Positions 13,952 through 43,633 of a stretch of DNA of 43,633 nt are shown one piece after another (positions within the stretch are counted from its first letter, which is position 1; each line of letters opens with the position of its first letter). The translations under genes were made by a program, and so were the position numbers. Source of the stretch: Chromobacterium haemolyticum DSM 19808. GTDB taxonomy: Bacteria; Pseudomonadota; Gammaproteobacteria; Burkholderiales; Chromobacteriaceae. The stretch lies in NCBI RefSeq assembly GCF_000711885.1, contig NZ_JONK01000038.1, forward strand, positions 1 to 43,633, given 5' to 3'. The notes beneath the pieces were generated by a model that was given only the letters and a program-made list of their open reading frames with translations, had not been told where the DNA came from and ran no database searches.

Positions 13952-13958
13952 GCATGTC

Positions 13959-17545: not shown

Positions 17546-17567
17546 AAGTCCTGGGGGCCGCCGCCGC

Positions 17568-27544: not shown

Positions 27545-30500
27545 TTAAACTTTGAGCATACCGGGTAGGCCGGGCAGCTTGGGCAGCATGCCGCCGGCGC
27601 GTTCGGCTAGCGCGGGGATGGCGCTTTGCGGATTGCGCGCCAAGGCCAGCGCCTGCTGCGCCTGCGCGGCCATGGCTTGCGCCTGGCCCAAGGTGTTTTG
27701 CAGTTGCGGGCTGACTTTACCTAGCGTGCTGCCCAGTTGCTGCATCGCCTGCTGTTTGACGGCCTCGCCGGTCTGCTGCAGCGCCACTTCCGGCTGAGGC
27801 ACAAAGGGGAAGATGTCAGCCTTGTCTTTGTGCGGACGGCCCAGGAATTGCACTTGCGCCGGCCCGGTGGGCAGGCCGTTGACCATGGCCTTGCCGGCCT
27901 CGTCCAGCACGCCGTGGTGTTTGACGCCCAGCGCGTCGGTGACCACGAATTTGCCCTGGTCCATGGAGTAGCCATTGGCGAACTCATGGATCACTTGCAG
28001 ATTGCCCATGCCCGGCTTGTTGAAGGTGGGCGTGGAGGTGCTGAGGCTGGCCGGCCCGCTGAGCGCGTGGCTGGCACCCTTGACGCTGACTTCGCCCGGG
28101 CAGTGCACTTCGATATTGCCGCCCTTGAGCCGGATATAGCCGCCGCCGCTGGTGAGCAGGATTTCCTGGCCGGCGGCGATTTCCACCTTGCCCTTGCAGG
28201 CGGTGACGGTCACATCCTTGTCCGCAGTCACCTCAATGCTGTCGCTCTGCGCTTGAACCTGCACCTTGCCCTTGGCGGCGATCAGCTTCAGCGCCACCTT
28301 GTCCTTCACCCCGGCCACGAACAGGCTGATGTGCTGGCCCACATTGTGAATCCAGCGCCGGCCGCTGGTCTGGTTGGTATCGCGCTGCGCTACCAGGTCC
28401 AGGTTGGTCCCCGCCGCCACGGTCTGGCTTTGCTGGCTCAGGCTGGCGATGCCGGCGGGGGCGGAGAGCACGATCAGCGGCTGCTGGCCGGCCTGGTCTT
28501 TTGCGGTCTTGCCGTCTTTGTCGGTGTTGGAGCCGGCTTCCCAGGCTTTCAAGGCGGCAGCCTGGTGCTGCAGGTGGCCTTCGGTTTTCTTGGCGGCCTT
28601 GGCGTTGTCCGCGCCGATTTCTTCCGGCCCGGTTTCCATGGTGTCGGCCTGCTGGCCAGTGGCGGTGTCGCCCAGGCTTTGGCTCAGGGCCAGGGCCGCG
28701 TCCAGCTGGCTTTGCGCCTGTTCGCGCGCCAGCTGTTTGCCGGAAGCGCCGTTCTGCGCTTCGGTGCTCAGCAGCAGGCCGTGGCCGGCGCGGATGGCGC
28801 CGTGCTGGTCGGTTCTGAGTTCAAAGCCGTCGCCGCGCGGCTCGGCCTTGCCGTTGCTGCGGGGGTGGGTGAGGAAGCCTTGGTTGAGCTGGGTCTTGCC
28901 CGGTTCACTCGATAGCTTGGTTCTGACTTCACCGGGGGTGTCGTCGAACAGCAGTTCGTTGTACTGGCCGCCCTGGTGTTCCTTGGACTTGATGCCGGAC
29001 AGGGTTTTATTCGCCGGCAAGGCGCCGGCGCCGCTGAAGTCCGGGGTGGGGTGGCTGCCGTTGTAGAGCACGCCGGTGATCACCGGGCGGTCGATGTCGC
29101 CTTCAATGAAATCGACCAGCACTTCCTGGCCGATGCGCGGGATGAATTGGTGGCCCCAGCCGGCGCCGGCGCTGGGCATGACCACGCGCAGCCAGCAGGA
29201 GGATTTGTCGTCCAGGTTGGCGCCGATGCTCGGATGTTCGTCCGGCCGCTGCCAGTGGAATTGCACTTTGATGCGGCCGTGCTGGTCGGTGTGCACCTCC
29301 TCGCCCTGCGGCCCCACCACGGTGGCGGTCTGCACGCCGCGGGATTTGGGCTTGGCCAGTTCGGTGTGGGCGTAGGCCGGGGTCAGCGGCACGCCGCGGC
29401 GCTGGGCGTCGAACTCGGCGCGAAAGGGTTGGGCGTCTTTCTCTCCCGCCAGCGCTTTGAGGTCCGCCGGCAGGTTGTTGCGCGCGCTCAGGGTTTGGCG
29501 GGTGACGACGAATTCGCGCTGTTCGCTGCTGTCGCCGTCGTGGGCCGGGTGGTCGTCCAGGCGAAACCATTGGCCGGCGGCCAGACCGCGCACCCAGCCG
29601 CCGCCGCTGAATTGCTTGGCCTTGAGGTCATGCGCTTGTTGGCGCAGTTGGGCGTAGTGGCTGAGCTGGTCGGCGTCGCCGGCGTAGTACAGCGATTGCG
29701 GGTCGTAGTCGTGCAAGGAAGACTGCAGCGCCTTGCCGTTCTGGCCCTGATCAATACGGCTGTCGTCGCCGCTGTGCTGAGTTTGCACCGGCTGGTAGTC
29801 GAAGCTGGCCAGCGCCACCGCGCCGGGGACGATCTGGCGCTGCGCGTTCCACTCGGTCAGGCCGTCTTCGGCCTCGGTGGCGTCGCTGCGGTGGAAACGC
29901 ACCCGTTCCACACTGGCCGGCGGCAGGCTGTAGGGGTCGTCGAAGGCGACCAGTTGCACCTGGGGGGTGTCACCGTCGAGGTGATCGAAACGCCAGGCAT
30001 AGCCCTCTTCATGCAGCAGCCGCACGATGAAGTCGTAATCGGATTCGCGGTATTGCAGGCAGTAGCTGCGCGGGGACGCCGCGCCGGTCTTGAATTCCAG
30101 CGTCTGCACCCGGGCGAACACCGGGTTGGCCTGCTGATGCTCGGCCAGGATCTGTTTGACGATGTCCGGCACCGACAGGTCCTGGAACACCCGCGAGCTG
30201 ACGCGATGACGCAGCAGCGCGAACGGCGGCTCAATGGTCAGCTGATAACGGCTGAAACCGCCGTCCGAGCCCAGGCTCTCCACTTTGGACACCACGCCGC
30301 AGCGCAAGCACTCCGCGCCGGCGGCGTCGAGGATGCCGATGCGGGCCGGCAGGCCGAGCAGGGTCTTGAGTTCGATGGCCCCGTCCGGCGACAAACACAC
30401 CAGCTGGTAGGCGTAAGGCCGGGACACGCCTTCCTCGCCGGCCAGGCTCAGGGGCAGCAGTTGCTCGGCCGCCACGCTGCCGTCGCCCAGGCTGAGGGTG

Positions 30501-30562
30501 AGCAGGCGTTGGTCTTGGTTGAAGGCGGAGGCGAAGCTGGCGAGCAGGGTGCTGAGGTCCAT
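27545..30562 (-). CDS. vgrG: T6SS spike protein VgrG with C-terminal extension
   Basis: A 1005-residue spike protein (TssI). Residues 1 to about 410 form the gp27-like part. The gp5-like OB fold lies around 420-505 (TDQHGRIKVQFHW, GWGHQFIPRIGQEVLVDF). A linker and the DUF2345 beta-prism follow at about 695-850 (SLSQQSQTVAAGTNLDLVAQ; GGGYIRLKGGNIEVHCPG). The extension begins near 850: a beta-rich, transthyretin-like segment (QGKFVVTDALGVKHHGVLDE) and a Gln/Ala-rich helical tail. Such extensions often dock effectors, fitting the rhs gene directly behind it. Length exceeds the common 650-800. It lies 19 bp behind tssE. Its first 425 bp are nearly identical to the inverted vgrG at 43209. Confidence 0.96.
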   Translation of the reverse strand: MDLSTLLASFASAFNQDQRLLTLSLGDGSVAAEQLLPLSLAGEEGVSRPYAYQLVCLSPDGAIELKTLLGLPARIGILDAAGAECLRCGVVSKVESLGSDGGFSRYQLTIEPPFALLRHRVSSRVFQDLSVPDIVKQILAEHQQANPVFARVQTLEFKTGAASPRSYCLQYRESDYDFIVRLLHEEGYAWRFDHLDGDTPQVQLVAFDDPYSLPPASVERVRFHRSDATEAEDGLTEWNAQRQIVPGAVALASFDYQPVQTQHSGDDSRIDQGQNGKALQSSLHDYDPQSLYYAGDADQLSHYAQLRQQAHDLKAKQFSGGGWVRGLAAGQWFRLDDHPAHDGDSSEQREFVVTRQTLSARNNLPADLKALAGEKDAQPFRAEFDAQRRGVPLTPAYAHTELAKPKSRGVQTATVVGPQGEEVHTDQHGRIKVQFHWQRPDEHPSIGANLDDKSSCWLRVVMPSAGAGWGHQFIPRIGQEVLVDFIEGDIDRPVITGVLYNGSHPTPDFSGAGALPANKTLSGIKSKEHQGGQYNELLFDDTPGEVRTKLSSEPGKTQLNQGFLTHPRSNGKAEPRGDGFELRTDQHGAIRAGHGLLLSTEAQNGASGKQLAREQAQSQLDAALALSQSLGDTATGQQADTMETGPEEIGADNAKAAKKTEGHLQHQAAALKAWEAGSNTDKDGKTAKDQAGQQPLIVLSAPAGIASLSQQSQTVAAGTNLDLVAQRDTNQTSGRRWIHNVGQHISLFVAGVKDKVALKLIAAKGKVQVQAQSDSIEVTADKDVTVTACKGKVEIAAGQEILLTSGGGYIRLKGGNIEVHCPGEVSVKGASHALSGPASLSTSTPTFNKPGMGNLQVIHEFANGYSMDQGKFVVTDALGVKHHGVLDEAGKAMVNGLPTGPAQVQFLGRPHKDKADIFPFVPQPEVALQQTGEAVKQQAMQQLGSTLGKVSPQLQNTLGQAQAMAAQAQQALALARNPQSAIPALAERAGGMLPKLPGLPGMLKV
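30138..30562 (-). repeat. Inverted repeat arm A (5' end of vgrG)
   Basis: This stretch matches 43209-43633 in opposite orientation with 8 mismatches in 425 bp by hand alignment. Homology starts exactly at the ATG; the upstream sequences differ. The other end is not seen because the second copy is cut by the window. Confidence 0.95.
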
Positions 30563-30581
30563 GGGGCGCTGTCAGGCTGGG

Positions 30582-31061
30582 TTAGCCTTGTACCTTGTAT
30601 ACGTTGGAGGAGAGTTGCAGGGTGGCGTCGAAGGTGACCGGCGGCCGGTGCGGATGTACTTTCAGCACCGCGTCGACGCGGAAGCGCAGGTGGCGCTCCA
30701 TCTCGCGCGGCGCGTCGAGGTTCACCCGCACGCGGGACAGGCGCGGTTCGTGCATTTCGATGGCGCGGCGCAGTTGTTCGCGCAGCAGTTCCCGGTCGTG
30801 GGGATTGAGCAGGCTGATGCCGGACAGGTCCGGGATGCCGAAGCTCAGCATGCTGTCGTGCGCTTGCGGATACATGTCGAACAGTTCTTGCAAGGGCGCG
30901 AGCCGGGTGTTCAGCAGTGCTTCCAGATCCCGCGCCAGCGAGCGCTTGACCTGCGGCAGTTCGTACAACATGGTTTCCGCGCCGTGGCTGTTGTCCGGCT
31001 GGTCGTCCAGCAGCCGGTCCAGCACCGACGGCAAGATCTGGGCGTGGCGGCTGCTGTGCAT
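30582..31061 (-). CDS. tssE: T6SS baseplate protein TssE
   Basis: A 159-residue gp25-like baseplate wedge protein needed for sheath polymerisation on the baseplate. Family features are SVLDRLLDD near the start, LARDLEALLNTR, SMLSFGIPDLSG and the C-terminal HLRFRVDAVLKVHP strand region. It lies between tssL (3-bp gap) and vgrG (19-bp gap) and is clearly co-transcribed with them. Its usual neighbours tssF and tssG are not here and should lie elsewhere in the genome. Confidence 0.95.
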   Translation of the reverse strand: MHSSRHAQILPSVLDRLLDDQPDNSHGAETMLYELPQVKRSLARDLEALLNTRLAPLQELFDMYPQAHDSMLSFGIPDLSGISLLNPHDRELLREQLRRAIEMHEPRLSRVRVNLDAPREMERHLRFRVDAVLKVHPHRPPVTFDATLQLSSNVYKVQG

Positions 31062-31064
31062 GGC

Positions 31065-31766
31065 TTACAGGCCGAAAATGGATTGGAGCTGGTTGGACAG
31101 CAGCCAGCGGTAGGCGACGAAGATGCCGGCGCCCACAACGGCCAGCAGGGCGAAGTACAGCCACAGCGGCAGTTCATGGCGGACAAAGGCCTGGAAGCGC
31201 TGCGGCAGCTGCCAGTTGGGCGCGAACTCGGCCTTGCCGCCGCGCACTTGCTGGATTTCCTGGCCCAGCTTGTGGGTCAGGTAGCCCAGTTTTTCCTGGC
31301 CTTCCAGCAGGTATTTGCCTTGGAAGCCCAGCAGCAGGCAGGTGTAGAACACTTCCAGCGGTTCGATATGAGCGGCCGGGTCCAGGCGCAGCTGTTCCAG
31401 GCGGTTGAAGAAGCCCTCTCCGGCCAGATGCTCGCCAAACAGCCGCAGCTGCAGCGGCATGCGCTCCCATTCGTCACGGATGTCGAACTCGGAAGACAGG
31501 ATGATCTCGTCCATCAAGGCGCAAAACGCGTACTTGGAGTGGTTGATGGCGTTCTGGTCCTTGCCGAAGTTGCGGGCGTTGCGCTCGTATTGGTTCAGAA
31601 ACTGGTCGACGCGGCGGTTGAACTCCACCGCGCTGCTTGGGGCGTTGCCGTCCCGGAGCAGGAATAGCAGGTAGATGCCGTCTTCCAGCATTTCGCGCAG
31701 GGTGGGGGCCGAGGCGGAGGCTACGGTCAGCGGGCGTTCTTGGAGAGTTGCGGCGGTTTGGTTCAT
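31065..31766 (-). CDS. tssL: T6SS membrane complex protein TssL (DotU/IcmH family)
   Basis: A 233-residue inner-membrane protein that joins TssM and TssJ in the trans-envelope complex. The cytoplasmic hook domain includes YAFCALMDEIILSSEFD, ERMPLQLRLFGEHLAGEGFF and EVFYTCLLLGFQGKYLLEG. The single helix (LWLYFALLAVVGAGIFVAY) lies close to the C-terminus, leaving only a short periplasmic end. This is the short TssL form, without a fused OmpA-like peptidoglycan-binding domain. A separate OmpA-like lipoprotein gene downstream of hcp may provide that function. It is 7 bp behind tssK. Confidence 0.95.
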   Translation of the reverse strand: MNQTAATLQERPLTVASASAPTLREMLEDGIYLLFLLRDGNAPSSAVEFNRRVDQFLNQYERNARNFGKDQNAINHSKYAFCALMDEIILSSEFDIRDEWERMPLQLRLFGEHLAGEGFFNRLEQLRLDPAAHIEPLEVFYTCLLLGFQGKYLLEGQEKLGYLTHKLGQEIQQVRGGKAEFAPNWQLPQRFQAFVRHELPLWLYFALLAVVGAGIFVAYRWLLSNQLQSIFGL

Positions 31767-31773
31767 GGCGGCC

Positions 31774-33120
31774 TCAGCGGAATACGGCGATCAGTTCAAG
31801 CGTCAGGTTGGAGAGGGTCTGCGGCATATAGATGCAGATGCTGCGCGATTGCAGCATGCGGCTGAAGATCTCGCCGTGCGGCTCCAACGCGAAATAGTGG
31901 TTGCCCACCCGCACCGGGATGGCGGACGGGGTTTGCGCCGCATGGCTGAGCGCCACGCCGCGCATCGCGGAGTTGAGGATTTTTTCCACGTCGTCCGGCG
32001 CGCCGATTTTCATCTTCAGCGGGACGCTGTCGATGATCTGGCTGGCTGGCAGCTCGCTCTGCACCGACAGGTAGTAATCGACGTTCTCCAGCAGGCGGTC
32101 GCTTTCCAAGCGGCCAATGTAGAAGGACGGCTTGGGCGAATGCAGCGGGATGATGGCGTAGCGCGAGGAGATCACGGTTTCCAGCAGCTCGCGGATCTGC
32201 GTGTCCAGCGCCGCCAGCACGGCGTGCAGGTCGTCGTGGCGGTAGGCCGGGATGTCGGACAGGGTGTAATGGGTGGAGAAGGTTTGCAGCTCGCCGCAGA
32301 ATTCGGCCAGCGCCAGGTACAGCTCTTCCGGGTGCAGGGGGCTGGACAGCGACAGGTGGCGCAGCTTGGCGAAATTGCGGTTGACGGTGTGCAGCAGCCA
32401 GAAAGAGCTGATGTCGCTGGAGCTGTACTCCATCACGTTCTTGGCGCGTTCACGCTGTCCGCCGGACAGCGCCTGGTTCTTGACCAGCAAGATGTCCAGC
32501 AGGCGGCGCAGCATGTGACTGACCTCGCGCGAGCCTTCCACCGTGACCAGCGGGGGAATGAAGCCGCCGCCCAGGCTCCATTGGCCAGTGGCGTCTTTCT
32601 CCAGGCGGCACAGCGGAATGGCGTCGTAGCCGTCGCGGTTCTCTTCCTCGATCATCAGCCGCACGTCCAACTCCAGCGTGGACAGGTCGGCGTCCAGAGC
32701 CTGGGTGTACAGGTCGGCCACTTCCGCGCTGGCGCTTTGAAAGCGGGTGGGACGGGACATGACTTCGCCGTTGCGGGTATTGCCGCCGTAAGGCTGCATA
32801 TGGGCGAGACAGGCGTAAAGCGTGGTCTTGATGCCGGCTTGCGGCAAGGTGTTCAGGTCGCGGGACAGCGGCAGCGGCGCACTGGCCGGCGCTTGGTACA
32901 GCGTGCCGTCGCGGAACAGGATGGACAGCGCGTCGATGCGGACCGCGCCGCCCTTGAGCGCCTGTTCGTCCAAGGCAATATGCTGCAGGCCCCAAGCGTG
33001 GCGCTGGCTCAGTTGCTGCCGCGAGGCGACATGCTGCTCCAGCATGAGGGTTTGCTGTTGAAAGTGCTGCGGGCGCAGAAACATGCCTTCGCCCCAGAGC
33101 ACTCGTTTGGCTTGTTGCAT
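31774..33120 (-). CDS. tssK: T6SS baseplate protein TssK
   Basis: A 448-residue baseplate component that links the baseplate wedges to the TssJLM membrane complex and is related to phage receptor-binding proteins. Signatures are KRVLWGEGMFLRPQHFQQQT at the N-terminus, IPLCRLEKDATGQW, SFWLLHTVNRNFAKLRHL and AIPVRVGNHYFALEPHGEIF near the end. AAGG lies about 10 bases before the ATG. It heads the tight tssK-tssL-tssE-vgrG-rhs run. Confidence 0.96.
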   Translation of the reverse strand: MQQAKRVLWGEGMFLRPQHFQQQTLMLEQHVASRQQLSQRHAWGLQHIALDEQALKGGAVRIDALSILFRDGTLYQAPASAPLPLSRDLNTLPQAGIKTTLYACLAHMQPYGGNTRNGEVMSRPTRFQSASAEVADLYTQALDADLSTLELDVRLMIEEENRDGYDAIPLCRLEKDATGQWSLGGGFIPPLVTVEGSREVSHMLRRLLDILLVKNQALSGGQRERAKNVMEYSSSDISSFWLLHTVNRNFAKLRHLSLSSPLHPEELYLALAEFCGELQTFSTHYTLSDIPAYRHDDLHAVLAALDTQIRELLETVISSRYAIIPLHSPKPSFYIGRLESDRLLENVDYYLSVQSELPASQIIDSVPLKMKIGAPDDVEKILNSAMRGVALSHAAQTPSAIPVRVGNHYFALEPHGEIFSRMLQSRSICIYMPQTLSNLTLELIAVFR

Positions 33121-33390: not shown

Positions 33391-33930
33391 TCAGTTCCGG
33401 CTGGCGGCGCAGTCCGCCTTGGCGGGCGAAGGCTGGCCGGGCATGGTCAATGCCTTGGGCTTGATGGCTTCCAAGTGGCAATCTGCGGCGCGGAAGCTCA
33501 GATCTTTGCTGCGGACGGCGTCTGCGTCATACAACAAACGCCAGAAGTGGGCATCCGGCCGGCGGAAAAAACCGACGACGCCGATGAATTGAGCGTCTTT
33601 TTCAATGGTGACGTCTTCCAGTGTCACTTTGCCACCTGGCAAAAAGGTCAGTTCTTTGCTGCTGATCAGGCTGTCGCCCAGCAGTTCTGATTCAGGCTTG
33701 CCGCTGGACAGCGCCTCCATGGTCAGACGGTTGAAAGCCTGCTGGTTTTTCAGCTGGTAGACGTGCACCACTACGGACAGCGGTTTGCCTTTGGCGTCGC
33801 GGTTTAGCGAGGGGCTGCCCTCAGCTTTGATGTCGATGGTCTTCGTGCTGGAACAAGCGGCCAGAGAGGCAATGACAATGGCGTAAAATAGGATGCGTAC
33901 CTGTTCCCAGCAGGGGCGTTTTTTCATCAT
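33391..33930 (-). CDS. tssJ: T6SS outer-membrane lipoprotein TssJ
   Basis: A 179-residue lipoprotein. The N-terminal signal ends in the lipobox LAAC, with the lipidated cysteine at residue 26. The mature part has the TssJ transthyretin-like fold pattern: VVVHVYQLKNQQAFNRLTME, the loop that contacts TssM, then LTFLPGGKVTLEDVTIEKDA and QFIGVVGFFRRPDAHFWR. It anchors the TssJLM complex in the outer membrane. AGGA lies about 9 bases before the ATG pair at 33925-33930; either Met may start. It is divergent from the peptidase gene, and 270 bp separate it from tssK. Confidence 0.94.
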   Translation of the reverse strand: MMKKRPCWEQVRILFYAIVIASLAACSSTKTIDIKAEGSPSLNRDAKGKPLSVVVHVYQLKNQQAFNRLTMEALSSGKPESELLGDSLISSKELTFLPGGKVTLEDVTIEKDAQFIGVVGFFRRPDAHFWRLLYDADAVRSKDLSFRAADCHLEAIKPKALTMPGQPSPAKADCAASRN

Positions 33931-34110
33931 GACGGCGGTTCCTAACGATTGGATTTGTGACTATCTGCTATCGAAAGTATCCCAAATTTTTGGTTTAATT
34001 GGAATGCATGTCCCATTGCACATTGATTTGCACTCAGTTATTAAAATTCGAAATCGGGTAGCTCAAGCTATTGATTTAAATTGTAATGTCATTTATTGTC
34101 TCGCGTCAAA
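33931..34110. promoter_or_regulatory. AT-rich divergent promoter region between the two T6SS arms
   Basis: These 180 bp separate tssJ (minus) from the peptidase gene (plus) and must carry promoters for both arms unless transcription comes from outside. The AT content is much higher than in the flanking genes, as in many H-NS- or MvaT-silenced T6SS promoters. A possible plus-strand pair is TTGATT near 34023 and a TTAAAA-like box about 15 bp on. It is weak. Confidence 0.4.
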
Positions 34111-34977
34111 ATGCATTTGAACTATATATTGCCGATTCTGGTGCTTGGCATCGTTTTGCTCCTGTCTTGGCTGGGCTGGAAATTCTTCCTGGGACAGCCC
34201 CGCATCTTGGAAGGAAATCGCTCTCCAAAGCCGGTGTTGACCGGGGCGGAGGCCTTGGGCGCGCTTGCGGCCGGAAGACCTGAAAAACGCAATGAAAAGC
34301 CGGCGGTAAGCGCCGCTTTTTTGCGTGCGTCGCGCCGTGCCCCCAGCGTAGCCGCGCGCTATTGGCGGGTGTGGCTGCCGGTGGTGTCGCTGCTGTTGGT
34401 GGCCCTGGCGGTGGCCATCACGCTGAAGTTGAACCGTTTTCATCGCAGCCCGGAATTTGAGGTTTCCGAGTATGCGCAGGGCATGAGAATCAAGCAGACG
34501 CTGCTTGAAGAAAAACTAGTGCCGCCGCCGCCGCTTCCGCCGGAAGCTTTTGTCAATGTCATTGCGGAGCGGCCCAGCCTGGGACATGCGGATCGAGACT
34601 GGAGCAAGCTGAATCCCGAGTTTGTGCAAGTGGTGCTGCGGGTCATGGAAAGAATGAAGGCCAGGGGCTTCCCCATGGTGCTGCTGGAGGGCTATCGCAG
34701 TCCGGAGCGTCAGGATTCTCTGGCCGGGCAGGCCACGCTGGTAACCAAGGCCAAGGGTGGGCAGAGCAAGCATCAATACGGCTTGGCGGTGGACCTGGCG
34801 CCCATCCGCGAAGGCAAGGTAGTGATATCGGAACGTGATCCCTGGGCGATGCAGGCTTACAACGCGCTGGGAGAAGAGGCGACGGCGGCCGGCCTGACTT
34901 GGGGTGGCAACTGGAGTTTCAAGGATTTCGGACATATCGAGCGCTCAGGCTCGCTGAAGTCCTTGCTCAAAAAATAA
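34111..34977 (+). CDS. tagX: TagX-like membrane peptidoglycan peptidase (M15_4 family)
   Basis: A 288-residue protein with two N-terminal membrane helices (ILPILVLGIVLLLSWLGW; VWLPVVSLLLVALAVAITL), a proline-rich linker (EKLVPPPPLPPEAF) and a periplasmic M15_4/VanY-like zinc peptidase domain. Zinc ligands fit H221 and D228 in SKHQYGLAVDLAP and H275 in KDFGHIERS. VLLEGYRSPERQ is also typical. Acinetobacter TagX, an L,D-endopeptidase of this type, is needed for T6SS assembly because it opens the peptidoglycan for the membrane complex; the same job is inferred here. It starts the plus-strand arm, 27 bp before tssM. ATG 34111 is used, though the ribosome site is poor and a TTG at 34096 is possible. 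Confidence 0.8.
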   Translation: MHLNYILPILVLGIVLLLSWLGWKFFLGQPRILEGNRSPKPVLTGAEALGALAAGRPEKRNEKPAVSAAFLRASRRAPSVAARYWRVWLPVVSLLLVALAVAITLKLNRFHRSPEFEVSEYAQGMRIKQTLLEEKLVPPPPLPPEAFVNVIAERPSLGHADRDWSKLNPEFVQVVLRVMERMKARGFPMVLLEGYRSPERQDSLAGQATLVTKAKGGQSKHQYGLAVDLAPIREGKVVISERDPWAMQAYNALGEEATAAGLTWGGNWSFKDFGHIERSGSLKSLLKK

Positions 34978-35004
34978 CGGTTTTCAAGAAGGTGGTGGGT
35001 GTTT

Positions 35005-38000
35005 ATGAAAGGTTGGCTGCGTCACGCCAAGGTGGCTTCGGCGATCGGGTTCCTGATCCTGATCGCTCTGATCTGGTTCCTGGGACCGTGGTTGGGCCTG
35101 GAGTCGCTGGAAGCCCGTTTGGGCTGGATTATCGGCGTCATGTTGTTATGGGTGCTGACCCTGCTGGTGGGCCAGGTTTTGGCGCGCCGTGCCGGCGGTC
35201 TGGTGGAGCGCATGCTGCGCAAGCAGGCTGACGAGGCGGTGATCAACGCCAGCTCCGACAAGCGCGCCGAGGTCACCCTGCTGCGCCAGCGGCTGTTGGG
35301 CGCGATAGACACCCTGAAGAAATCCAAGCTGGGCAGCGCCAGCGGCAGCGCCGCGCTGTACGAACTGCCTTGGTACATGATCATCGGACACCCGGCTGCG
35401 GGCAAGAGCTCGGCCATTCTGCAGTCCGGCCTGACCTTTCCGTTCAGCGACAAGAGCGGTATTCAGGGCGTGGGCGGCACCCGCAACTGCGACTGGTTCT
35501 TCTCAACCGAAGGCGTGCTGTTGGACACCGCCGGCCGTTACGCGACTCAGAGCGAGGACCGGGTGGAGTGGCTGGAATTCCTCAAGCTCCTGAAAAAGCA
35601 CCGCGCCAAAGCGCCGGTCAACGGCATCCTGATCGCCATCAGCCTGCCGGAGCTGGCGCAGCACCATAGCGAAGGTTTCACTCTGTACGCGCGCCAGATC
35701 CGCGAGCGCATTCACGAGGTGTGCAACACCTTCGGCCTTTTGGTGCCCATCTATCTGGTGTTCACCAAGCTGGACCTCTTGGGCGGCTTCGCCCAGTTTT
35801 TCCAGGACGCCAGCGATGAAGACCGCGCCAGGGTCTGGGGCGCGACGCTGAGCGCGGATCAGGGCACGGGTTTCGACGTGGCCACCGTGACCGGCCAGCA
35901 GTTTGAACTGCTCTACCGCGGCCTGGTGCAGGCCGGCGAGGAAAAGCTGATCCAGTACCGCGGCGACCAAGTCAAGCCGGCGCACTTCGCCTTTCCCATT
36001 GAATTCCACGGCTTGAAAGAGGCGGTGGTTAAATTCGTCAAGCTGCTGCACGAAGAAGACCCCTATCACGCGCGTCCTCTGCTGCGTGGTTTCTATTTCA
36101 CCAGCGCCTTGCAAGAGGGCGTGCCGCGCATCGTGGCCGCCAATCGCGTGCAAGGCCAATTCGATCTGAGCCAGGGCGGCCAGGAGATGAAGCAGGCGCC
36201 GGCGTCTTACAGCTACTTCCTGCGTAATCTGTTCCGCGACGTGCTGTTTCAGGATCAACACCTGATTTCGCGCCAGACCAAGCCCAGCGGCAGCCGCTGG
36301 CGTTTGTTCGGCATGGCCGCCGGGGTGTTGTCGCTGGCCGCGCTGGCCAGCTTCTGGACCTGGTCCTTCATCGGCAACCAGCATTTGCTGGACGAGGTGA
36401 AGGCCGAGCGCGCGCAGGCGCAAAAGCTGGCCGCCAGCGGGCAGTTGTACGACAAGCTGCGCTCGCTGCAGATCTTGCAGAAGCGGCTGGAGGAATTGCA
36501 GGCTTACCGCAAGAACGGCGCGCCGTGGCAAGTGGGCCTGGGCCTGTATCAGGGCAAGGAGTTGGAGCCGCAACTGCGTCGCGAGTATTTCACCGGCTTG
36601 AAGGAAGTGATGCTGCGCCCGGTGCAGCGCAATCTGGAAACCACGCTGGTGGCGCTGAAGCCGGAGTCTCCGGCGCCGGCTCCCGCGCCCGCGCCGGTTG
36701 TGAGCGAGCCGCCCAAGCCGGCCGCGCCCGCGCCGTTCAAACCCAAGCCTAAAAAGCACGCGCCGCGCGGCGGTTTGCCCAATATCAACCTGAGCGCGCT
36801 GGATTGGCCGCAACGCGCCACCACCGCCAAGCTGGAGGCCTCAGCGGCGCAAGGCGAGCCCGCATCCGCTCCGCAGCGTAATCCGCAGCAACTGGACGCC
36901 AGCTACAACGCTTTGAAAACCTATCTGATGCTGCATGAGCAGAAGCGCATGGACGAAGCGCATCTGATAGACCAGCTGCCGCGCTACTGGCGGCCCTATC
37001 TGGAAAGCCAGCGCGGCCAGTATTCGGTGGAAGAAGTGATGGCGGTGGCCGAGAAGCTGGTGGCTTTCTACGTTAGCCAGATCAAGGAAGCGGACCTGCC
37101 GCTGATCGAGAACAACGCCAAGGTGGTGGGCGAGGCCCGCGATGTGCTGCGAGGCTCCTTCAAGCGCCTGTCCGCCCAAGAACGGGTGTTCAACGAAATC
37201 AAGGCCCGCGCCAATACCCGTTTCGCTCCGCTGACCGTGGCGCGGATTCTGGACAACCGGGATCTGGACGTGATGGCCGGCAGCCAGATGGTAGAGGGCG
37301 CCTACACTCGCGAAGCCTGGAACACCTATGTTAAGGGCGCTATCGACGAAGCCAGCAAGGGTGAAATCCGTAGCGACGACTGGGTGCTGGCCTCGTCTAC
37401 TCAGGACAATTTGGGCCGGGACGGCGACGTGGAGAAAAACCGCGCCGCGCTGGAGGCCCTGTACCGCGCCCAATACGCCGCCGCCTGGAAGAAATTCCTG
37501 ATCGGCGTCACCACCCGCGACTTCACCAATCCGGCCCAGTCCGCCTCCGCGATGGCGCGCTTGTCCGATAAGCAAAGCTCGCCCATCAAGCTGGTGCTGG
37601 CGCGCGCGGCGATGGAAACCGCCTGGGACAATCCGTCGGAGCTGAACCGCTCGCTGGAAAACGCCAAGCAGTCGATGCTGGAAAAAACCGCGGAATTCCT
37701 CAAGGGCGGCAGCTCGCCGGCCCAAGCGGACAAGACCAAACTGTACGGCGAAGTGGGCCGTCAGTTCGCCGGCGTGGCGCAACTGGTCAAGGGCGACAAC
37801 CCGCCGATCAACGCTTACCTGGAACAGTTGGCCAAGCTGAAAGCCAAGCTGGCGGCGATCTCCAGCACCGACGAACCCGGCCCGCAAGCCCGCGCCGCCT
37901 TGCAGGCGACCCTGGGCGGCTCCGGCTCGGAGCTGGGCGATACCGCCTCCTTCGTAGACAACACCCTGCTGAGCCAAGTCACGCCGGAAACCGGCGAGAT

Positions 38001-38772
38001 GGTGCGCCCGATGCTGGTGCGCCCGCTGACCCAGTCCTACAACGCTCTGCTGGGGCCGGTGGCCAACGACATCAACCAGGCCTGGGCCAACGAAGTGCTG
38101 CCCCAGTGGAAGCAGCTGGCCGGCAAATACCCATTCGCGGATTCCAGCAACAGCGCCTCGGTGGCGGAGATCAGCCGCTTCGTCAAGGCCAACGACGGCA
38201 CGCTGGACAAATTCATCAACAAATACCTGAACGGCCTGGTGCAGAAGAAGGGCGACCAATTGGTGCCGCGCGCCTGGGGCAATATGGGCGTCAAGTTCAA
38301 CCCGGCCTTCCTGTCCAGCGTCAGCAGCCTGTCCGCTCTGGCCAACGCACAACTGCAAGACGGCGAAAACACCCGTTTTGAACTGCAGCCGACGCCGACG
38401 CCGGGCCTGTCCGAAATCGTGTTCGAGGTGGATGGCCAGGAACTGCGCTACCGCAACGGCCCGCAGGCCTGGCAGCCGTTCACCTGGCCCGGCAACGGCC
38501 AGAACGCCGGCGCCCGCATCCAGGTGGTGTCCTACAGCGGCGCCAGCAGCGTGGTGGGCAACCAGCCGGGACGCATGGGCCTGATGCGCTTGCTGTCCAG
38601 CGCCAAGGTCAGCCAGGACAGCCCGGACTCCGCTCAGCTCACTTGGAACTTGCGCAAGCCCGACGGCGAGGCGCAAACGGTGAAATTCAATTTCCGCATG
38701 GTTGGCGGCGTGAATCCGCTGCAACTGAACAAGCTTTACAAGCTGACCTTGCCTGAGCGCGTGACGCTATAA
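35005..38772 (+). CDS. tssM: T6SS membrane complex protein TssM (IcmF family)
   Basis: A 1255-residue inner-membrane protein that spans the periplasm to TssJ. Two helices near residues 10-58 precede a cytoplasmic NTPase-like domain with a good Walker A (GHPAAGKSS, K134) and DTAGRYATQSED. A third helix lies at about 433-456 (AAGVLSLAALASFWTW), followed by the long periplasmic part that ends with the C-terminal beta domain (FEVDGQELRYRNGPQAWQPF). An unusual low-complexity Pro/Ala then Lys/Pro stretch occurs at about 553-590. A GTG at 34999 is an alternative start with a well-spaced AAGG. It is co-directional with the peptidase gene and tagF. Confidence 0.97.
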   Translation: MKGWLRHAKVASAIGFLILIALIWFLGPWLGLESLEARLGWIIGVMLLWVLTLLVGQVLARRAGGLVERMLRKQADEAVINASSDKRAEVTLLRQRLLGAIDTLKKSKLGSASGSAALYELPWYMIIGHPAAGKSSAILQSGLTFPFSDKSGIQGVGGTRNCDWFFSTEGVLLDTAGRYATQSEDRVEWLEFLKLLKKHRAKAPVNGILIAISLPELAQHHSEGFTLYARQIRERIHEVCNTFGLLVPIYLVFTKLDLLGGFAQFFQDASDEDRARVWGATLSADQGTGFDVATVTGQQFELLYRGLVQAGEEKLIQYRGDQVKPAHFAFPIEFHGLKEAVVKFVKLLHEEDPYHARPLLRGFYFTSALQEGVPRIVAANRVQGQFDLSQGGQEMKQAPASYSYFLRNLFRDVLFQDQHLISRQTKPSGSRWRLFGMAAGVLSLAALASFWTWSFIGNQHLLDEVKAERAQAQKLAASGQLYDKLRSLQILQKRLEELQAYRKNGAPWQVGLGLYQGKELEPQLRREYFTGLKEVMLRPVQRNLETTLVALKPESPAPAPAPAPVVSEPPKPAAPAPFKPKPKKHAPRGGLPNINLSALDWPQRATTAKLEASAAQGEPASAPQRNPQQLDASYNALKTYLMLHEQKRMDEAHLIDQLPRYWRPYLESQRGQYSVEEVMAVAEKLVAFYVSQIKEADLPLIENNAKVVGEARDVLRGSFKRLSAQERVFNEIKARANTRFAPLTVARILDNRDLDVMAGSQMVEGAYTREAWNTYVKGAIDEASKGEIRSDDWVLASSTQDNLGRDGDVEKNRAALEALYRAQYAAAWKKFLIGVTTRDFTNPAQSASAMARLSDKQSSPIKLVLARAAMETAWDNPSELNRSLENAKQSMLEKTAEFLKGGSSPAQADKTKLYGEVGRQFAGVAQLVKGDNPPINAYLEQLAKLKAKLAAISSTDEPGPQARAALQATLGGSGSELGDTASFVDNTLLSQVTPETGEMVRPMLVRPLTQSYNALLGPVANDINQAWANEVLPQWKQLAGKYPFADSSNSASVAEISRFVKANDGTLDKFINKYLNGLVQKKGDQLVPRAWGNMGVKFNPAFLSSVSSLSALANAQLQDGENTRFELQPTPTPGLSEIVFEVDGQELRYRNGPQAWQPFTWPGNGQNAGARIQVVSYSGASSVVGNQPGRMGLMRLLSSAKVSQDSPDSAQLTWNLRKPDGEAQTVKFNFRMVGGVNPLQLNKLYKLTLPERVTL

Positions 38773-38785
38773 GGGAGACACAGTC

Positions 38786-39805
38786 ATGGCGTTCAATTTC
38801 AAGCGGGCGCAGGAAACGCCTCCGCAATTCTGCATTTTTGGCAAGTTGCCGCGCCGCGGCGACTTCGTCCGCGTCAATGCCACCCACCCGGCGGCCACTC
38901 AGCTGGACCAGCTGCTGGCGCAAAGCCTGGGCGGGCTGGAGGCCGGTCCGGACGCGGTGGAGCGCTACCGCGCGATGCCGGGCACCAGCTTTGTGCTGCG
39001 TAGCCGCGACCAAATGTGGCTGTCGCTGGGCGTGATGCAGCCCAGCCGCGATGAAAGCGGCCGTAATTATCCTTTGGTGGCGGCCTCGCTGATGCCTTGC
39101 GACGGGCCTTTGCCGCCGCTGTCGGTGTTGATGCTGGCCAATGAGCTGTTCTTCTCCGGCTTGAAGGAGCAACTGAGCAGCGCCATCGACAACGCCGTGG
39201 AAATGCTGGCTTGCCGCCAGTTTCTGGAGGAGCAGTCCTTGTTTGGCATCTCCTCCGTGGCGGATCTGGACTTGGCGCAGCAACTGCTGGAGCGGCATCT
39301 GAGCGTGACGCCGGCTTCTCATCTGAGCCGGCTGTTGAGCAGCCGGGGCCTGCCGGATCTGGAAACGGTGCTTCTGGCCTTCACCTTCCACCACCAGCTG
39401 TTGCGCAAGTTCCAAGGCAGCCTGACGGCGCAGACCTATCTGCTGCCGCTGCCGGACAGCGATGGCGAAGACATGTTGGCCGCGGCCACTTGGTTGTCGC
39501 TGTACCAGGCGGCTACCGCCGGCCAGGCCGGCCAAGCGGAGCAATGTCTGCTGATTCACCGGCCGGAAGGGCGCTTCCTGGCCCTGCTGCCGGGCGACTT
39601 GAACGAGCAGATTGTCTCGCAGTGCTGGGGAGGGCAGCTGGATGCCCGCTTCATCGTCGACGTGGCTGAGCCGCAGGCGCCGTGGCGCAGCCATCAGGCC
39701 TACGCAGAAGCGGCTTACATCCTGGGGCGGAGGCTGAACGATCCGTCCATTTCGGTGGCGCAGTTGCGCGAAGTGGCGTCCAGCCTGTCGCGCAGCGTGG
39801 CCTGA
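38786..39805 (+). CDS. tagF: T6SS-associated protein TagF
   Basis: A 339-residue cytoplasmic protein. The N-terminal TagF domain is clear: FCIFGKLPRRGDFVRVN, QLDQLLAQSLGGLE, SFVLRSRDQMWLSLGVMQPS and DESGRNYPLVAA. TagF is a post-translational repressor of T6SS firing, usually acting through the scaffold protein Fha. Neither the PppA phosphatase, sometimes fused to TagF, nor PpkA or Fha is in this window. The C-terminal half (about 150 residues onward) is less conserved. It starts 13 bp after tssM and is certainly co-transcribed. An 83-bp gap separates it from tssB. Confidence 0.9.
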   Translation: MAFNFKRAQETPPQFCIFGKLPRRGDFVRVNATHPAATQLDQLLAQSLGGLEAGPDAVERYRAMPGTSFVLRSRDQMWLSLGVMQPSRDESGRNYPLVAASLMPCDGPLPPLSVLMLANELFFSGLKEQLSSAIDNAVEMLACRQFLEEQSLFGISSVADLDLAQQLLERHLSVTPASHLSRLLSSRGLPDLETVLLAFTFHHQLLRKFQGSLTAQTYLLPLPDSDGEDMLAAATWLSLYQAATAGQAGQAEQCLLIHRPEGRFLALLPGDLNEQIVSQCWGGQLDARFIVDVAEPQAPWRSHQAYAEAAYILGRRLNDPSISVAQLREVASSLSRSVA

Positions 39806-39888
39806 GTAGTGACGTAACACCGGAACGGCCGGCGATATCCGCAGAGGCCGCTCCAATCAGAGCTTTGTGAACTTGAGAGAGAACCATC

Positions 39889-40401
39889 ATGGCCAAAGAA
39901 AGCACACAGAAAAAACTGTCGCGGGTACGCCCGCCGCGCGTGCAGATCACTTACGACGTTGAAATCGGCGACGCCATCGAAACCAAGGAACTGCCCTTCG
40001 TGCTGGGCGTGCTGGGCGACTACTCCGGCCACAGCAAGGAGCCGTTGCCCAAGATGAAGGAACGCAAGTTCGTTCAGATCGACCGCGACAACTTCGACGA
40101 AGTGCTCAAGGGCATGGCGCCGCGCCTGGCCATCAAGGTGGACAACAAGCTGAAAGACGACGGCAGCCAGCTGGCGATGGAGCTGAACTTCGAAGAACTG
40201 GCCGATTTTGAGCCGCAGAACGTGGTGGATCAGGTTGAGCCGCTGAAAAAGCTGCTGGACGCGCGCAAGCGCCTGGCCGACCTGCGCAACAAGATGGCGG
40301 GTAACGACAAGCTGGAAGAATTGTTGGACGAAGTGGTGCGCGATACCGAAAAGCTGAAGGCAATCAGCCAGGCCGCGCATCCGGACAAAGCGGGAGAGTG
40401 A
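39889..40401 (+). CDS. tssB: T6SS contractile sheath small subunit TssB (VipA)
   Basis: A 170-residue protein that pairs with TssC to form the contractile sheath. Signatures are RVRPPRVQITYDVEIGDA, ELPFVLGVLGDYSG, KFVQIDRDNFDEVLKGMAPR and FEELADFEPQNVVDQVEPLK. GAGAGAACC lies just before the ATG. It is followed by tssC after 3 bp, so the two subunits are made together. Confidence 0.97.
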   Translation: MAKESTQKKLSRVRPPRVQITYDVEIGDAIETKELPFVLGVLGDYSGHSKEPLPKMKERKFVQIDRDNFDEVLKGMAPRLAIKVDNKLKDDGSQLAMELNFEELADFEPQNVVDQVEPLKKLLDARKRLADLRNKMAGNDKLEELLDEVVRDTEKLKAISQAAHPDKAGE

Positions 40402-40404
40402 TAG

Positions 40405-41889
40405 ATGAGCGCAGAACAACAACTTGAGGCCGTCGCGGCCGCAGCACCGGCGGCGGCCGGCAGCCTGCTCGACTCCATCATCGAGCAAAGCCGCGTCGCC
40501 ACCAACGACAACGAAAAGGGCCACACCCGCGACCTGATCGGCGAACTGGTCGACCAGGTGCTGGAAGGCAGCGTCAGCGTATCGCGAGACCTGTCCGCCA
40601 GCATTGACGCGCGCATCGCCGAGATCGACGCGCTGATCTCCTCCCAGCTGAACGAGATCATGCACCACAACGACTTCCAGAAGCTGGAAGCTTCCTGGCG
40701 TGGTCTGAAGTACCTGGTGATGGAGTCCGAAACCAGCACCATGCTCAAGATCAAGGTGCTCAACGCCTCCAAGAAAGACCTGGTCAAGGACTTCAAGGCG
40801 GCGCCGGAATTCGACCAGAGCGCGCTGTTCAAGAAAATCTACGAAGAAGAATACGGCACCTTCGGCGGCGCGCCTTACGCCGGCCTGGTGGGCGATTACG
40901 AATTCACTCGCCACCCGGAAGACTTCTACCTGCTGGACGAACTGTCCCACGTAGCCGCCTCCGCGCACGCGCCGCTGATCACCGCGGCCTCTTCCGGCCT
41001 GTTTGGCCTGGAAAGCTTCACCGATGTGGGCAAGCCGCGTGATCTGGCCAAGATCTTCGACACCGTCGAATACGCCAAGTGGAAATCCTTCCGCGAGTCG
41101 GAAGACTCCCGTTACGTCGGCCTGGTGTTGCCGCACGTGCTGGGGCGCCTGCCTTACGGCCGCGACAACGTGCCGGTGGAGGAATTCGACTTTGAAGAAA
41201 ACGTGGACGGCAGCACTCACGAAAAATACCTGTGGACCAACGCCTCTTACGCCTACGCCGCGCGTCTGACCTCCGCTTTCGCCCAATACGGCTGGCTGGC
41301 GGCCATCCGCGGCGTGGAGGGCGGCGGCCTGGTGGAAGGCCTGCCGGCCCACACCTTCAAGACTGACGACGGCGAAGTGGCGCTCAAGTGTCCCACCGAA
41401 GTGGCGATCACCGACCGCACCGAAAAACTGCTGTCCGACTTGGGCTTCATCTCGCTGGTGCACTGCAAAAACACCGACTACGCGGCCTTCTTTGGCGGCC
41501 AATCGGTGCAGAAGGCCAAGACTTACAACACGGACTCGGCCAACGCCAACGCGCGCCTGTCCACCCAACTGCCCTACATCTTCGCGGTATCGCGCATCGC
41601 GCATTACATGAAATCCATCATGCGCGACAAGATCGGCAGCTTCGCCTCGCGCCAGAACGTGCAGGACTTCCTGAATACTTGGCTGGCGCAATATGTGCTG
41701 CTGGACGACTCCGCCAGCCAGGAAGCCAAAGCCAAGTATCCGCTGCGCGAAGCGCGCGTCGACGTGGTGGAAGTGCCGGGCAAACCCGGCGTCTATCGCG
41801 CCGCCGCCTTCCTGCGGCCGCATTTCCAGCTGGATGAACTGACTATTTCCCTGCGTTTGGTGGCGGAACTGCCGCAACCGGCGGGTTAA
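40405..41889 (+). CDS. tssC: T6SS contractile sheath large subunit TssC (VipB)
   Basis: A 494-residue sheath protein. Conserved stretches include EIMHHNDFQKLEASWRGLKY, PYAGLVGDYEFTRHPEDFYL, PHVLGRLPYGRDNVPVEEFD, YGWLAAIRGVEGGGLVEGLP and DLGFISLVHCKNTDYAAFFG. The length and C-terminus (HFQLDELTISLRLVAELP) are normal. It lies 3 bp behind tssB. A GC-rich hairpin and a 112-bp gap separate it from hcp. Confidence 0.98.
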   Translation: MSAEQQLEAVAAAAPAAAGSLLDSIIEQSRVATNDNEKGHTRDLIGELVDQVLEGSVSVSRDLSASIDARIAEIDALISSQLNEIMHHNDFQKLEASWRGLKYLVMESETSTMLKIKVLNASKKDLVKDFKAAPEFDQSALFKKIYEEEYGTFGGAPYAGLVGDYEFTRHPEDFYLLDELSHVAASAHAPLITAASSGLFGLESFTDVGKPRDLAKIFDTVEYAKWKSFRESEDSRYVGLVLPHVLGRLPYGRDNVPVEEFDFEENVDGSTHEKYLWTNASYAYAARLTSAFAQYGWLAAIRGVEGGGLVEGLPAHTFKTDDGEVALKCPTEVAITDRTEKLLSDLGFISLVHCKNTDYAAFFGGQSVQKAKTYNTDSANANARLSTQLPYIFAVSRIAHYMKSIMRDKIGSFASRQNVQDFLNTWLAQYVLLDDSASQEAKAKYPLREARVDVVEVPGKPGVYRAAAFLRPHFQLDELTISLRLVAELPQPAG

Positions 41890-41905
41890 GGCTGGAGAGT
41901 CCGCG

Positions 41906-41950
41906 CGCGTCCGCCGGGTTTAGGCGCGGCGGCGGGCGCGGGCGTCTTTT
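41906..41950 (+). terminator. Attenuator-like hairpin between tssC and hcp
   Basis: CGCGTCCGCCG pairs with CGGCGGGCGCG (11 bp, one G-T pair, 13-base loop) and is followed by GGCGTCTTTT. It looks like a partial terminator after tssC. hcp follows 50 bp on with a strong AAGGAG, so hcp probably has its own promoter or gets limited read-through. Confidence 0.55.
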
Positions 41951-42001
41951 GGAATGGGGGGCTTAGCCTCCAATTTTTGACCTTTGTTTAAGGAGAAGTA
42001 A

Positions 42002-42499
42002 ATGGCTTTTGATGCATTCCTGAAAATTGACGGTATTCCTGGCGAAAGCAGCGACGACAAGCACAAAGACTGGATCGAGATCCAATCCTTTGCTCACAAA
42101 CTGGAACAGCCGGCCCAGGCTACCGCCAGCTCCGCCGGCGGCGCCACCGCCGAGCGCGTGAACCACGCCGCTTACGAAATCACCCACTTCCTGGACAAAG
42201 CCAGCCCGAAGATCTACGAAGCCTGCTGCAAGGGCCAGCACATCAAGGAAATCACCATCGAACTGTGCCGTGCCGGTGGCGACAAGGTGAAGTACATGGA
42301 GATCAAGATGGAGCAAGTCCTGATCGCCAAGGTTGAGCCGCATGGTTCCGCTAACGACAACGGCTTCCCCAGCGAAAAAGTGAGCTTCACTTACGGCAAG
42401 ATCAAGTGGACCTACACCCAGCAGAAACGCGCTGACGGCGCTGGCGGCGGTAACGTCAGCTCCGGTTGGGACCTGACCGCTAACAAAGCGATCGCCTAA
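42002..42499 (+). CDS. hcp: T6SS tube protein Hcp (TssD)
   Basis: A 165-residue protein that forms the hexameric rings of the inner tube and carries small cargo. It begins MAFDAFLKIDGIPGESSDDK, has WIEIQSFAHKLEQP and HFLDKASPKIYEACCKGQHI, and ends with KIKWTYTQQKRADGAGGGNV. It belongs to the longer Hcp1-like class. AAGGAG lies 7 bases upstream. It is flanked by an attenuator-like hairpin before and an intrinsic terminator after, so it can be made in large excess of the other T6SS parts. Confidence 0.97.
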   Translation: MAFDAFLKIDGIPGESSDDKHKDWIEIQSFAHKLEQPAQATASSAGGATAERVNHAAYEITHFLDKASPKIYEACCKGQHIKEITIELCRAGGDKVKYMEIKMEQVLIAKVEPHGSANDNGFPSEKVSFTYGKIKWTYTQQKRADGAGGGNVSSGWDLTANKAIA

Positions 42500-42523
42500 T
42501 TTCCTAGCGGTGCTGGAAAGCTG

Positions 42524-42549
42524 ACCCGCCCGTCGTTCGGGCGGGTTTT
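42524..42549 (+). terminator. hcp intrinsic terminator
   Basis: ACCCGCCCG, loop TCGTT and CGGGCGGGT form a 9-bp stem that runs directly into TTTT, 25 bp after the hcp stop codon. Confidence 0.88.
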
Positions 42550-42640
42550 AGGCATCCGGGAAACTGCCGCGCGCCGGTCCGGCGCAGCGGTTTCCCGGCT
42601 GCTCTTCGCCATGTTTAAAGTCAATCCGGGAAGTAATGCT

Positions 42641-43075
42641 ATGAAACGTTTGCTGATGGTCGCCGCGCTCGCCTTGTCGCTGGTGGGCTGCAAGACCAAT
42701 CCTAACGCTCAACAAGCCTCGAAAGACCCCGCCGTGATCAAGGCGGCGGAAGAAAAGGCCGCGCTGGACAAGGCCGTGGCCGCCAATATGGCCATAGACC
42801 CCAACCTGATCCCGTTTGAAAAAATGAGCCCGAAACTGTCCCCGGTGGGCGAGGCTCAATTGCAACTGCTGCTGCCCAAGCTCAAGACCGCCAAATCCAT
42901 TCTGGTGCGCGGCCATTGCTACCGCGGCGACATCGGCAACGCTCGCGCCGCCGCGCAAACCCGCGCTATCGCCGTCAAGCAGTTCCTGACCGATGCCGGC
43001 GTGCCGGCCAATAAAATCACCGTGCGTTACGACACCGAGCGTCAGTTGCACGCGGTGCGTTTGATCGCCAACTGA
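42641..43075 (+). CDS. OmpA-like lipoprotein associated with T6SS
   Basis: A 144-residue lipoprotein. The signal ends in lipobox LVGC with the lipidated cysteine at residue 17. A short helical linker leads to a C-terminal OmpA-like domain (about 60-144): LVRGHCYRGDIGN, then AAAQTRAIAVKQFLTDAGVP and ITVRYD. The arginine in QTRAIAV matches the peptidoglycan-contacting arginine of the family, while the usual TDxxG has become GHCYRGD, so binding may be altered. Since TssL here lacks a peptidoglycan-binding domain, this protein could anchor the apparatus to the wall, like TagL or SciZ but as a lipoprotein. ATG 42641 is chosen over 42611 because it directly begins the signal peptide. Confidence 0.75.
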   Translation: MKRLLMVAALALSLVGCKTNPNAQQASKDPAVIKAAEEKAALDKAVAANMAIDPNLIPFEKMSPKLSPVGEAQLQLLLPKLKTAKSILVRGHCYRGDIGNARAAAQTRAIAVKQFLTDAGVPANKITVRYDTERQLHAVRLIAN

Positions 43076-43127
43076 ATCTCGGCGCCGGGCCGCCATGCGT
43101 AAGCGGGCGGCCGGGCGTTTTCGGGTG

Positions 43128-43167
43128 CTTAAGCAAACCCGGCGCAACCGCGCAGGGTTTGCTTAAG
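43128..43167. promoter_or_regulatory. 13-bp perfect inverted repeat before the second vgrG
   Basis: CTTAAGCAAACCC at 43128-43140 and GGGTTTGCTTAAG at 43155-43167 are perfectly complementary around a 14-base GC-rich centre that can pair further. There is no T-run. It lies 41 bp before the vgrG ATG and could be an operator, an RNA hairpin controlling vgrG, or a weak terminator for the lipoprotein gene. Confidence 0.6.
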
Positions 43168-43208
43168 GACTCGCCAATTGCGCAGTCGATTTGAATCGGG
43201 TTAACGCC

Positions 43209-43633
43209 ATGGACCTCAGCACCCTGCTCGCCAGCTTCGCCTCCGCCTTCAACCAAGACCAACGCCTGCTCACCCTCAGCCTGGGCGACGGCAGCGTGGC
43301 GGCCGAGCAATTGCTGCCCCTGAGCCTGGCCGGCGAAGAAGGCGTGTCCCGGCCTTACGCCTACCAGCTGGTGTGTTTATCCCCAGACGGGGCCATCGAA
43401 CTCAAGACCCTGCTCGGCCTGCCGGCCCGCATCGGCATCCTCGACGCCGCCGGCGCGGAGAGCTTGCGCTGCGGCGTGGTGTCCAAAGTGGAAAGCCTGG
43501 GCTCGGACGGCGGTTTCAGCCGCTATCAGCTGACCATTGAGCCGCCGTTCGCGCTGCTGCGTCATCGCGTCAGCTCGCGGGTGTTCCAGGACCTGTCGGT
43601 GCCGGACATCGTCAAACAGATCCTGGCCGAGCA
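43209..43633 (+). CDS. vgrG: Second VgrG spike protein (5' partial)
   Basis: The first 141 codons of another vgrG, cut by the window end. It begins MDLSTLLASFASAFNQDQRL and runs through the start of the gp27-like domain to VPDIVKQILAE. The visible protein differs from the minus-strand VgrG only at one residue (Ser in place of Cys in the segment AGAESLRCGVV). The upstream sequences of the two genes are unrelated. Its 3' end, and any effector behind it, are unseen. Confidence 0.95.
   Translation, partial: MDLSTLLASFASAFNQDQRLLTLSLGDGSVAAEQLLPLSLAGEEGVSRPYAYQLVCLSPDGAIELKTLLGLPARIGILDAAGAESLRCGVVSKVESLGSDGGFSRYQLTIEPPFALLRHRVSSRVFQDLSVPDIVKQILAE
43209..43633 (+). repeat. Inverted repeat arm B (5' end of second vgrG)
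   Basis: Matches 30138-30562 in opposite orientation with 8 differences in 425 bp. The repeat may continue past the window end. The two arms face away from the T6SS core that they enclose. Confidence 0.95.

Follow-up and report, generated by a model that had tools for sequence, protein, structure and literature searches.

We analysed a stretch of 43,633 nucleotides from Chromobacterium haemolyticum DSM 19808 (the window), which is the complete contig C35 of a 63-contig, 5.03-Mb draft assembly. It carries domains of TssE, L, K, J, M, B, C, Hcp, TagF and VgrG and thereby qualifies as a main cluster of the VgrG-type type VI secretion system (T6SS); TssF and TssG domains were read on genes of the relative G005, whose counterparts lie on contig C47 of the window genome. 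Two outward-facing vgrG genes flank the T6SS core, vgrG-A on the side of tssE and vgrG-B on the side of an OmpA-family lipoprotein gene. Their 5' ends form the only inverted repeat of at least 40 bp reported in the window (seed 14), 427 nt long with 98% identity and starting 2 bp upstream of both start codons (Table 1). An earlier reading of the sequence alone (the sequence-only reading) had described the two genes as near-identical, and the count from both ATGs agrees with it: 8 differences over 425 bp, with residue 85 (Cys/Ser) as the sole difference between the translations of the shared 5' part. The 12.6 kb between the start codons (30562 to 43209) enclose 11 genes from tssE to the lipoprotein gene, also as described. 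That reading further proposed that recombination between the vgrG genes would invert the core and exchange the vgrG 3' ends, or tips, with the effector cassettes behind them. Comparison with relatives indicates that a core has indeed been inverted in this way in one genome, G011, where tips and cassettes have changed places with respect to the core.

The genus sample comprised 19 Chromobacterium genomes, one per species, of which 16, including the window genome (G000), have both tssE and tssC of the core; G002 gave no tssE match and G013 a weak one only. Of these 16, 14 show an outward vgrG pair: nine by comparison of the arms, G015 over two contigs, and four (G004, G008, G009, G010) through partial arms, that of G010 being only 36 bp. 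No arm was seen on the contigs that carry the core in G016 and G017; these contigs end 51 and 18 bp beyond tssE, respectively. In relatives with both genes assembled, the homology runs for 2.4–2.6 kb; the inverted arms of eight relatives span 2.36–2.64 kb with 91.6–98.7% identity. Arms also occur in two other genera, g9 (G045, G047) and g10 (G059, G048), so the bracket is probably older than the genus Chromobacterium. None were seen in the examined stretches of G021, G023, G035 and G044. In the sister genus (G019, G020), the T6SS is split between vgrG, which lies beside tssF, and tssE; the two are ~89 kb apart in G020 (L227, L228) and on different contigs in G019 (L230, L231).

The orientation of the core was read with tssF as the landmark. 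tssF lies behind the lipoprotein-side vgrG in G001, G005, G006, G007, G012, G014 and G018, in G015 too, and by synteny in G000. This usual orientation holds for nine of the ten resolved Chromobacterium genomes (G003 excluded), and six broken drafts of the genus could not be read (G004, G008, G009, G010, G016, G017). The tenth is G011, a single contig, in which the unit of tssF, tssG, clpV and an ImpA-type gene stands behind the tssE-side vgrG. Genes that we take to be of the cyo type (the one tested is a UbiA prenyltransferase) lie behind its lipoprotein-side vgrG and on the tssE side in G007, G014 and G018. Compared with G018, G007, G014 and G006, the 12-kb core of G011 is inverted exactly between its two vgrG genes. 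The arms at the two breakpoints are the only inverted repeat longer than 300 bp in the 80-kb region examined and have zero mismatches over their first 2,357 bp. Outside the genus, tssF was found in 19 genomes, of which seven were readable and 11 have tssF and the core on separate contigs; G020 was not read, with tssF and the core ~97 kb apart. All seven readable outgroup genomes (g2, g5, g8, g9, g10) have the order of G011. Orientation is thus not constant among relatives: both orientations occur, in G011 with the breakpoints at the arms, and G011 and the outgroups are opposite to the usual order. G003 was not counted as a second independent flip, as a transposase gene, presumably of an insertion-sequence-like family, lies between its tssF and tssB (L177 on C29, about 11638-12829 in locus coordinates). 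The T6SS of G003 looks broken: no tssE, tssK, tssJ, tssM, tagF or tssE-side vgrG turned up in C29:10001-29480, and tssE was not found genome-wide at the thresholds used.

A crossover between the arms must leave a reciprocal exchange beyond them, and the tips of G011 and G006 show such an exchange. The two vgrG genes of one genome are 88–100% identical in windows over codons 1–700, diverge sharply past codon 750 and reach only 29–49% in the last window. Over three windows past codon 750, the tssE-side copy of G011 matches the lipoprotein-side copy of G006 at 88/85/93%, and the lipoprotein-side copy of G011 matches the tssE-side copy of G006 at 89/87/91%, as against 37% (tssE side) and 35% (lipoprotein side) for same-side tips in the last window. 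The tip tree supports the crossed pairs at 100 and 99. The two genomes also share two cassettes: the gene for a 424-residue protein adjoins tssF in both, and a gene pair for 421- and 508/584-residue proteins lies at the opposite end; Pfam gave no match for any of these three proteins of G011. The cassettes stay with the chromosomal flanks, and the core is the part that turns. Two further features were seen in G006. Its whole T6SS region is flanked by a 1,198-bp inverted pair, 99.9% identical and bearing a 362-codon gene (L127, about 4592-5789; L129, about 13132-14329). In its tssE-side vgrG (L127), the first ~29 codons have no in-frame match, and codons 101–700 are 99–100% identical to the other copy.

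The sequence-only reading had also held that gene conversion would keep the 5' ends uniform while the tips diversify, and this pattern is borne out in most genomes. We compared 16 vgrG copies of eight genomes, with the window's vgrG-A not used as a query because its partner is incomplete. For codons 31–700, 14 of the 16 queries have their nearest copy in their own genome within the pool of bracket copies, and 15 of 16 do so among all 42 copies; for the 3' tips the counts are only 1/16 and 0/16, respectively. Within-genome paralogues are therefore closer than between-genome orthologues, with exceptions in G005, and the signal is weaker in the haemolyticum group. In G006, G007, G011, G014 and G018 the vgrG pair clusters by genome at 100; four of these five clusters include at least one orphan vgrG, and other orphans stand apart. 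As the bracket probably predates the genus, we read this likeness as homogenisation and not as recent duplication.

Could conversion alone, together with incoming DNA at vgrG, account for the locus? Identical arms are explicable without any crossover, and with the order of G011 in 7/7 readable outgroups, G011 might simply have kept the ancestral order after one change on the stem. We consider this unlikely. The rpoB-rpoC tree, built from 28 genomes, joins G011 to G017 and G008 (96.8/91) within a clade of the usual order, and G011 falls within the violaceum group at 93 in the core gene tree and at 100 in the flank gene tree, so independent flips elsewhere would be needed; the reciprocally exchanged tips of G011 and the usual-order G006 also stand against it. 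With G011 lying inside the group of usual order and the outgroups sharing its arrangement, a parsimonious history must include at least two flips. The minimum number of orientation changes on the rpoB-rpoC tree is three with G003 and two without it, each in 1000/1000 bootstrap trees (G013 was left out of this tree because of its very long branch in an earlier one); without G003 it is two for the core genes and three for the flank genes. We do not favour a horizontally acquired replacement from another genus as the origin of the G011 locus, since both core and flank trees place it in the violaceum group.

An assembly artefact, in which identical vgrG arms were joined at random, deserves consideration because arms do break assemblies: seven of the ten core-bearing drafts break in or just before vgrG (G000, G004, G008, G009, G010, G016, G017), two drafts span both genes (G001, G005) and one breaks elsewhere (G015). 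We regard it as very improbable, as G006, G011, G012, G014 and G018 are each assembled as one contig and G007 as two, which should need reads spanning the 2.4-kb arm, and orientation groups by phylogeny, unlike random joining.

The same phylogenetic grouping speaks against flips being frequent over the timescale of species; between species they seem rare. The proposal of the sequence-only reading holds on an evolutionary timescale, and frequent or regulated swapping is not supported. An active phase-variable switch, in which frequent flips of the core alternate the cassette behind each operon, would profit from long, near-identical arms and from a block that reads outward at both ends. It is nevertheless quite unlikely, given that orientation is near-uniform within clades and that no recombinase gene was found in a scan confined to the bracket of the window, in which all 11 enclosed genes fell into other Pfam families. 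A variant without a recombinase, in which cells of one strain would carry both orientations, the operons would alternate tip and cassette, and conversion would keep the arms competent, appears to us rather unlikely.

We therefore prefer, as the probable explanation, recombination between the arms in which gene conversion homogenises the vgrG 5' parts and an occasional crossover flips the core and swaps tips and cassettes. The core is a block transcribed outward, with tssJ-K-L-E running one way and the peptidase-like gene, tssM-tagF-tssB-tssC-hcp and the lipoprotein gene the other. Each end of the block is closed by a vgrG whose first ~2.3 kb are near-identical to the other and inverted. Non-reciprocal exchange would homogenise this 5' part in most genomes, in several of them together with a distant orphan vgrG. 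The occasional crossover would turn the core, so that the tip and effector cassette of each vgrG pass to the opposite half-operon. Both promoters probably lie within the inverted block, which is probably read outward at either end; a flip would change the half-operon that reads into tssF-tssG-clpV and the cassette that trails each half, with neither half cut. It would be tolerated because the block reads outward at both ends, so that one half or the other has tssF-tssG-clpV and the ImpA-type (tssA) gene downstream of it. Homologous recombination of the RecA type would be the presumable agent, and expression of the trailing genes might change with the flip. What was observed directly are the arms, the homogenised 5' parts alongside tips that diverge, and the existence of both orientations, with tips and cassettes reciprocally exchanged in one genome.

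Several points weigh against this explanation. Beyond the presumed stem event, there is only one clean derived flip, that of G011, and the insertion-sequence-like gene at the junction in G003 could by itself explain the order there. The bootstrap trees split between two and three changes at 456/544 for the core genes and 307/693 for the flank genes. The flank tree lacks a single Chromobacterium clade, with g2 genomes inside it at 57 and a poorly resolved base. Shuffled orientation labels needed as few changes in 6/5000 cases for rpoB-rpoC, 14/5000 for the core and 182/5000 for the flank tree. The copies of G005 are not mutually nearest when only the bracket copies are compared. The orientation assigned to the window genome itself depends on synteny and on the path of the assembler through vgrG-A.

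The window ends inside vgrG-B because vgrG is multi-copy and the assembly broke within the repeat. At least four near-identical vgrG 5' ends, not two, exist in the window genome: contigs C27 and C51 start within further ones, with 16/491 and 19/499 differences from vgrG-A, and vgrG 3' parts without a 5' part stand at contig ends of C47, C56 and C2. The three 5' ends and three 3' ends that lack partners are consistent with breaks of the assembly at a multi-copy repeat. The tip on C47 shares 97.5% identity with the lipoprotein-side VgrG in G005 and 97.0% with the one in G001. Behind it, C47 carries genes that correspond to those for a DUF4123 protein, an effector-like protein of the VasX_N type and a DUF6708 protein, with the domains assigned on their G005 equivalents; tssF, tssG, clpV and other genes come next, arranged as in G005 and G001. 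C47 would thus fit as the continuation of C35 past vgrG-B, by synteny and not by sequence overlap. The extension beyond position 43633 that the sequence-only reading called for would then place a DUF4123-VasX-like cassette behind vgrG-B. A ~150-bp repeat (87%) was noticed in the outer T6SS flanks, at window positions 17399-17548 and on C47 (L158, about 1306-1455); the two would be mutually inverted if C47 is taken as the continuation, and similar stretches occur in G005 and G001. Behind the VasX_N-type gene of G005 stand six tandem related genes of ~390 codons (C17, 54582-61909; L104, L105), which resemble an immunity gene array; the one tested has DUF6708. G001 has two such genes and contig C47 one.

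The spacing at the two ends of the core is unequal, as vgrG-A follows 19 bp after tssE and vgrG-B follows a 133-bp gap with stable stem-loops. The folding signal of this gap is weaker and variable over 12 relatives' genomes, with z from -0.5 to -4.0 compared with -5.9 in the window. This range makes a conserved attenuator at the stem-loop a weak candidate, and no terminator-like site was scored there. A 12-base perfect stem lies at 43129-43166, just upstream of vgrG-B; similar stems are present in G001, G005 and G012, and none was seen in five violaceum-group sequences compared. A gene of the same cluster as the Rhs-repeat effector-like gene of the window is also found behind vgrG-A in G001, G005 and G012. 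In C. violaceum, two divergent promoters have been placed between CV_3981 and tssJ (PMC9430734), and by position the gap upstream of tssJ in the window might be likened to that region.

Table 1. Features of the T6SS core in the window, its edges and the inverted-repeat arms.
Feature	Position	Strand	Basis
Rhs-repeat effector-like gene behind vgrG-A	22984..27507	-	Pfam
vgrG-A, tssE side, 1005 aa	27545..30562	-	Phage_GPD, Phage_base_V, T6SS_Vgr, DUF2345 and C-terminal extension
Inverted-repeat arm A (5' end of vgrG-A, visible part)	30138..30564	-	repeat search
tssE	30582..31061	-	GPW_gp25 (Pfam)
tssL	31065..31766	-	DotU (Pfam)
tssK	31774..33120	-	VasE/ImpJ (Pfam)
tssJ lipoprotein	33391..33930	-	Pfam
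Divergent intergenic gap, tssJ / peptidase-like gene	33931..34095	.	position
VanY/M15-type peptidase-like gene	34096..34977	+	Pfam
tssM	34999..38772	+	IcmF (Pfam)
tagF	38786..39805	+	Pfam
tssB	39889..40401	+	VipA (Pfam)
tssC	40405..41889	+	VipB (Pfam)
hcp	42002..42499	+	Pfam
OmpA-family lipoprotein gene	42611..43075	+	Pfam
Stable stem-loops, lipoprotein gene / vgrG-B gap	43076..43208	+	folding, z -5.9
Inverted-repeat arm B (5' end of vgrG-B, cut at contig end)	43207..43633	+	repeat search
vgrG-B, first 141 codons only	43209..43633	+	open reading frame; 3' part placed on C47 by synteny
vgrG-B 3' part, putative placement	end of contig C47 (L033)		synteny

By parsimony, the whole core turned at least twice in the history of the family with neither half-operon broken, which would give effector cassettes a concrete route to change their operon context. 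The vgrG bracket also accounts in part for the breaks at Chromobacterium T6SS loci in draft assemblies. In invertible phase-variation segments, a segment bounded by inverted repeats changes the gene that is read from a promoter, by means of short sites and a dedicated recombinase. The present locus differs from them, as its repeats are 2.4-kb coding sequences and its bracket in the window holds no recombinase gene. Recombination within vgrG loci is already well described in the literature. Inversion of a T6SS core between vgrG genes is not described in the titles and abstract openings of open-access papers among the matches listed, nor in the available portions of PMC9430734, PMC13324451, PMC8546570, PMC5361080 and PMC11751169. 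In agrobacteria, a conserved vgrG 5' part is combined, by recombination within the gene, with C-terminal parts and downstream effector genes that vary (PMC8546570). Those hot spots differ from the present locus in that fragments or loci are displaced; in the portion available, the word "inversion" does not occur and "inverted" occurs twice, both unrelated. In Vibrio cholerae, homologous recombination swaps effector-immunity modules and leaves immunity arrays behind (PMC5361080); there the modules are replaced by incoming DNA, and no word starting with "inver" appears in the text available. A close likeness is the main T6SS of C. violaceum ATCC 12472, with two divergent operons, vgrG1 and vgrG2, each trailed by effector, DUF4123 adaptor and immunity genes, and orphan vgrGs, the VgrGs being 70–93% identical (PMC9430734). 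The main text of that paper contains neither "recombination" nor "inverted", and no comparison of orientation was found in the portion available. The homology known for the gain of effectors from other strains here forms an inverted pair around the secretion machine itself.

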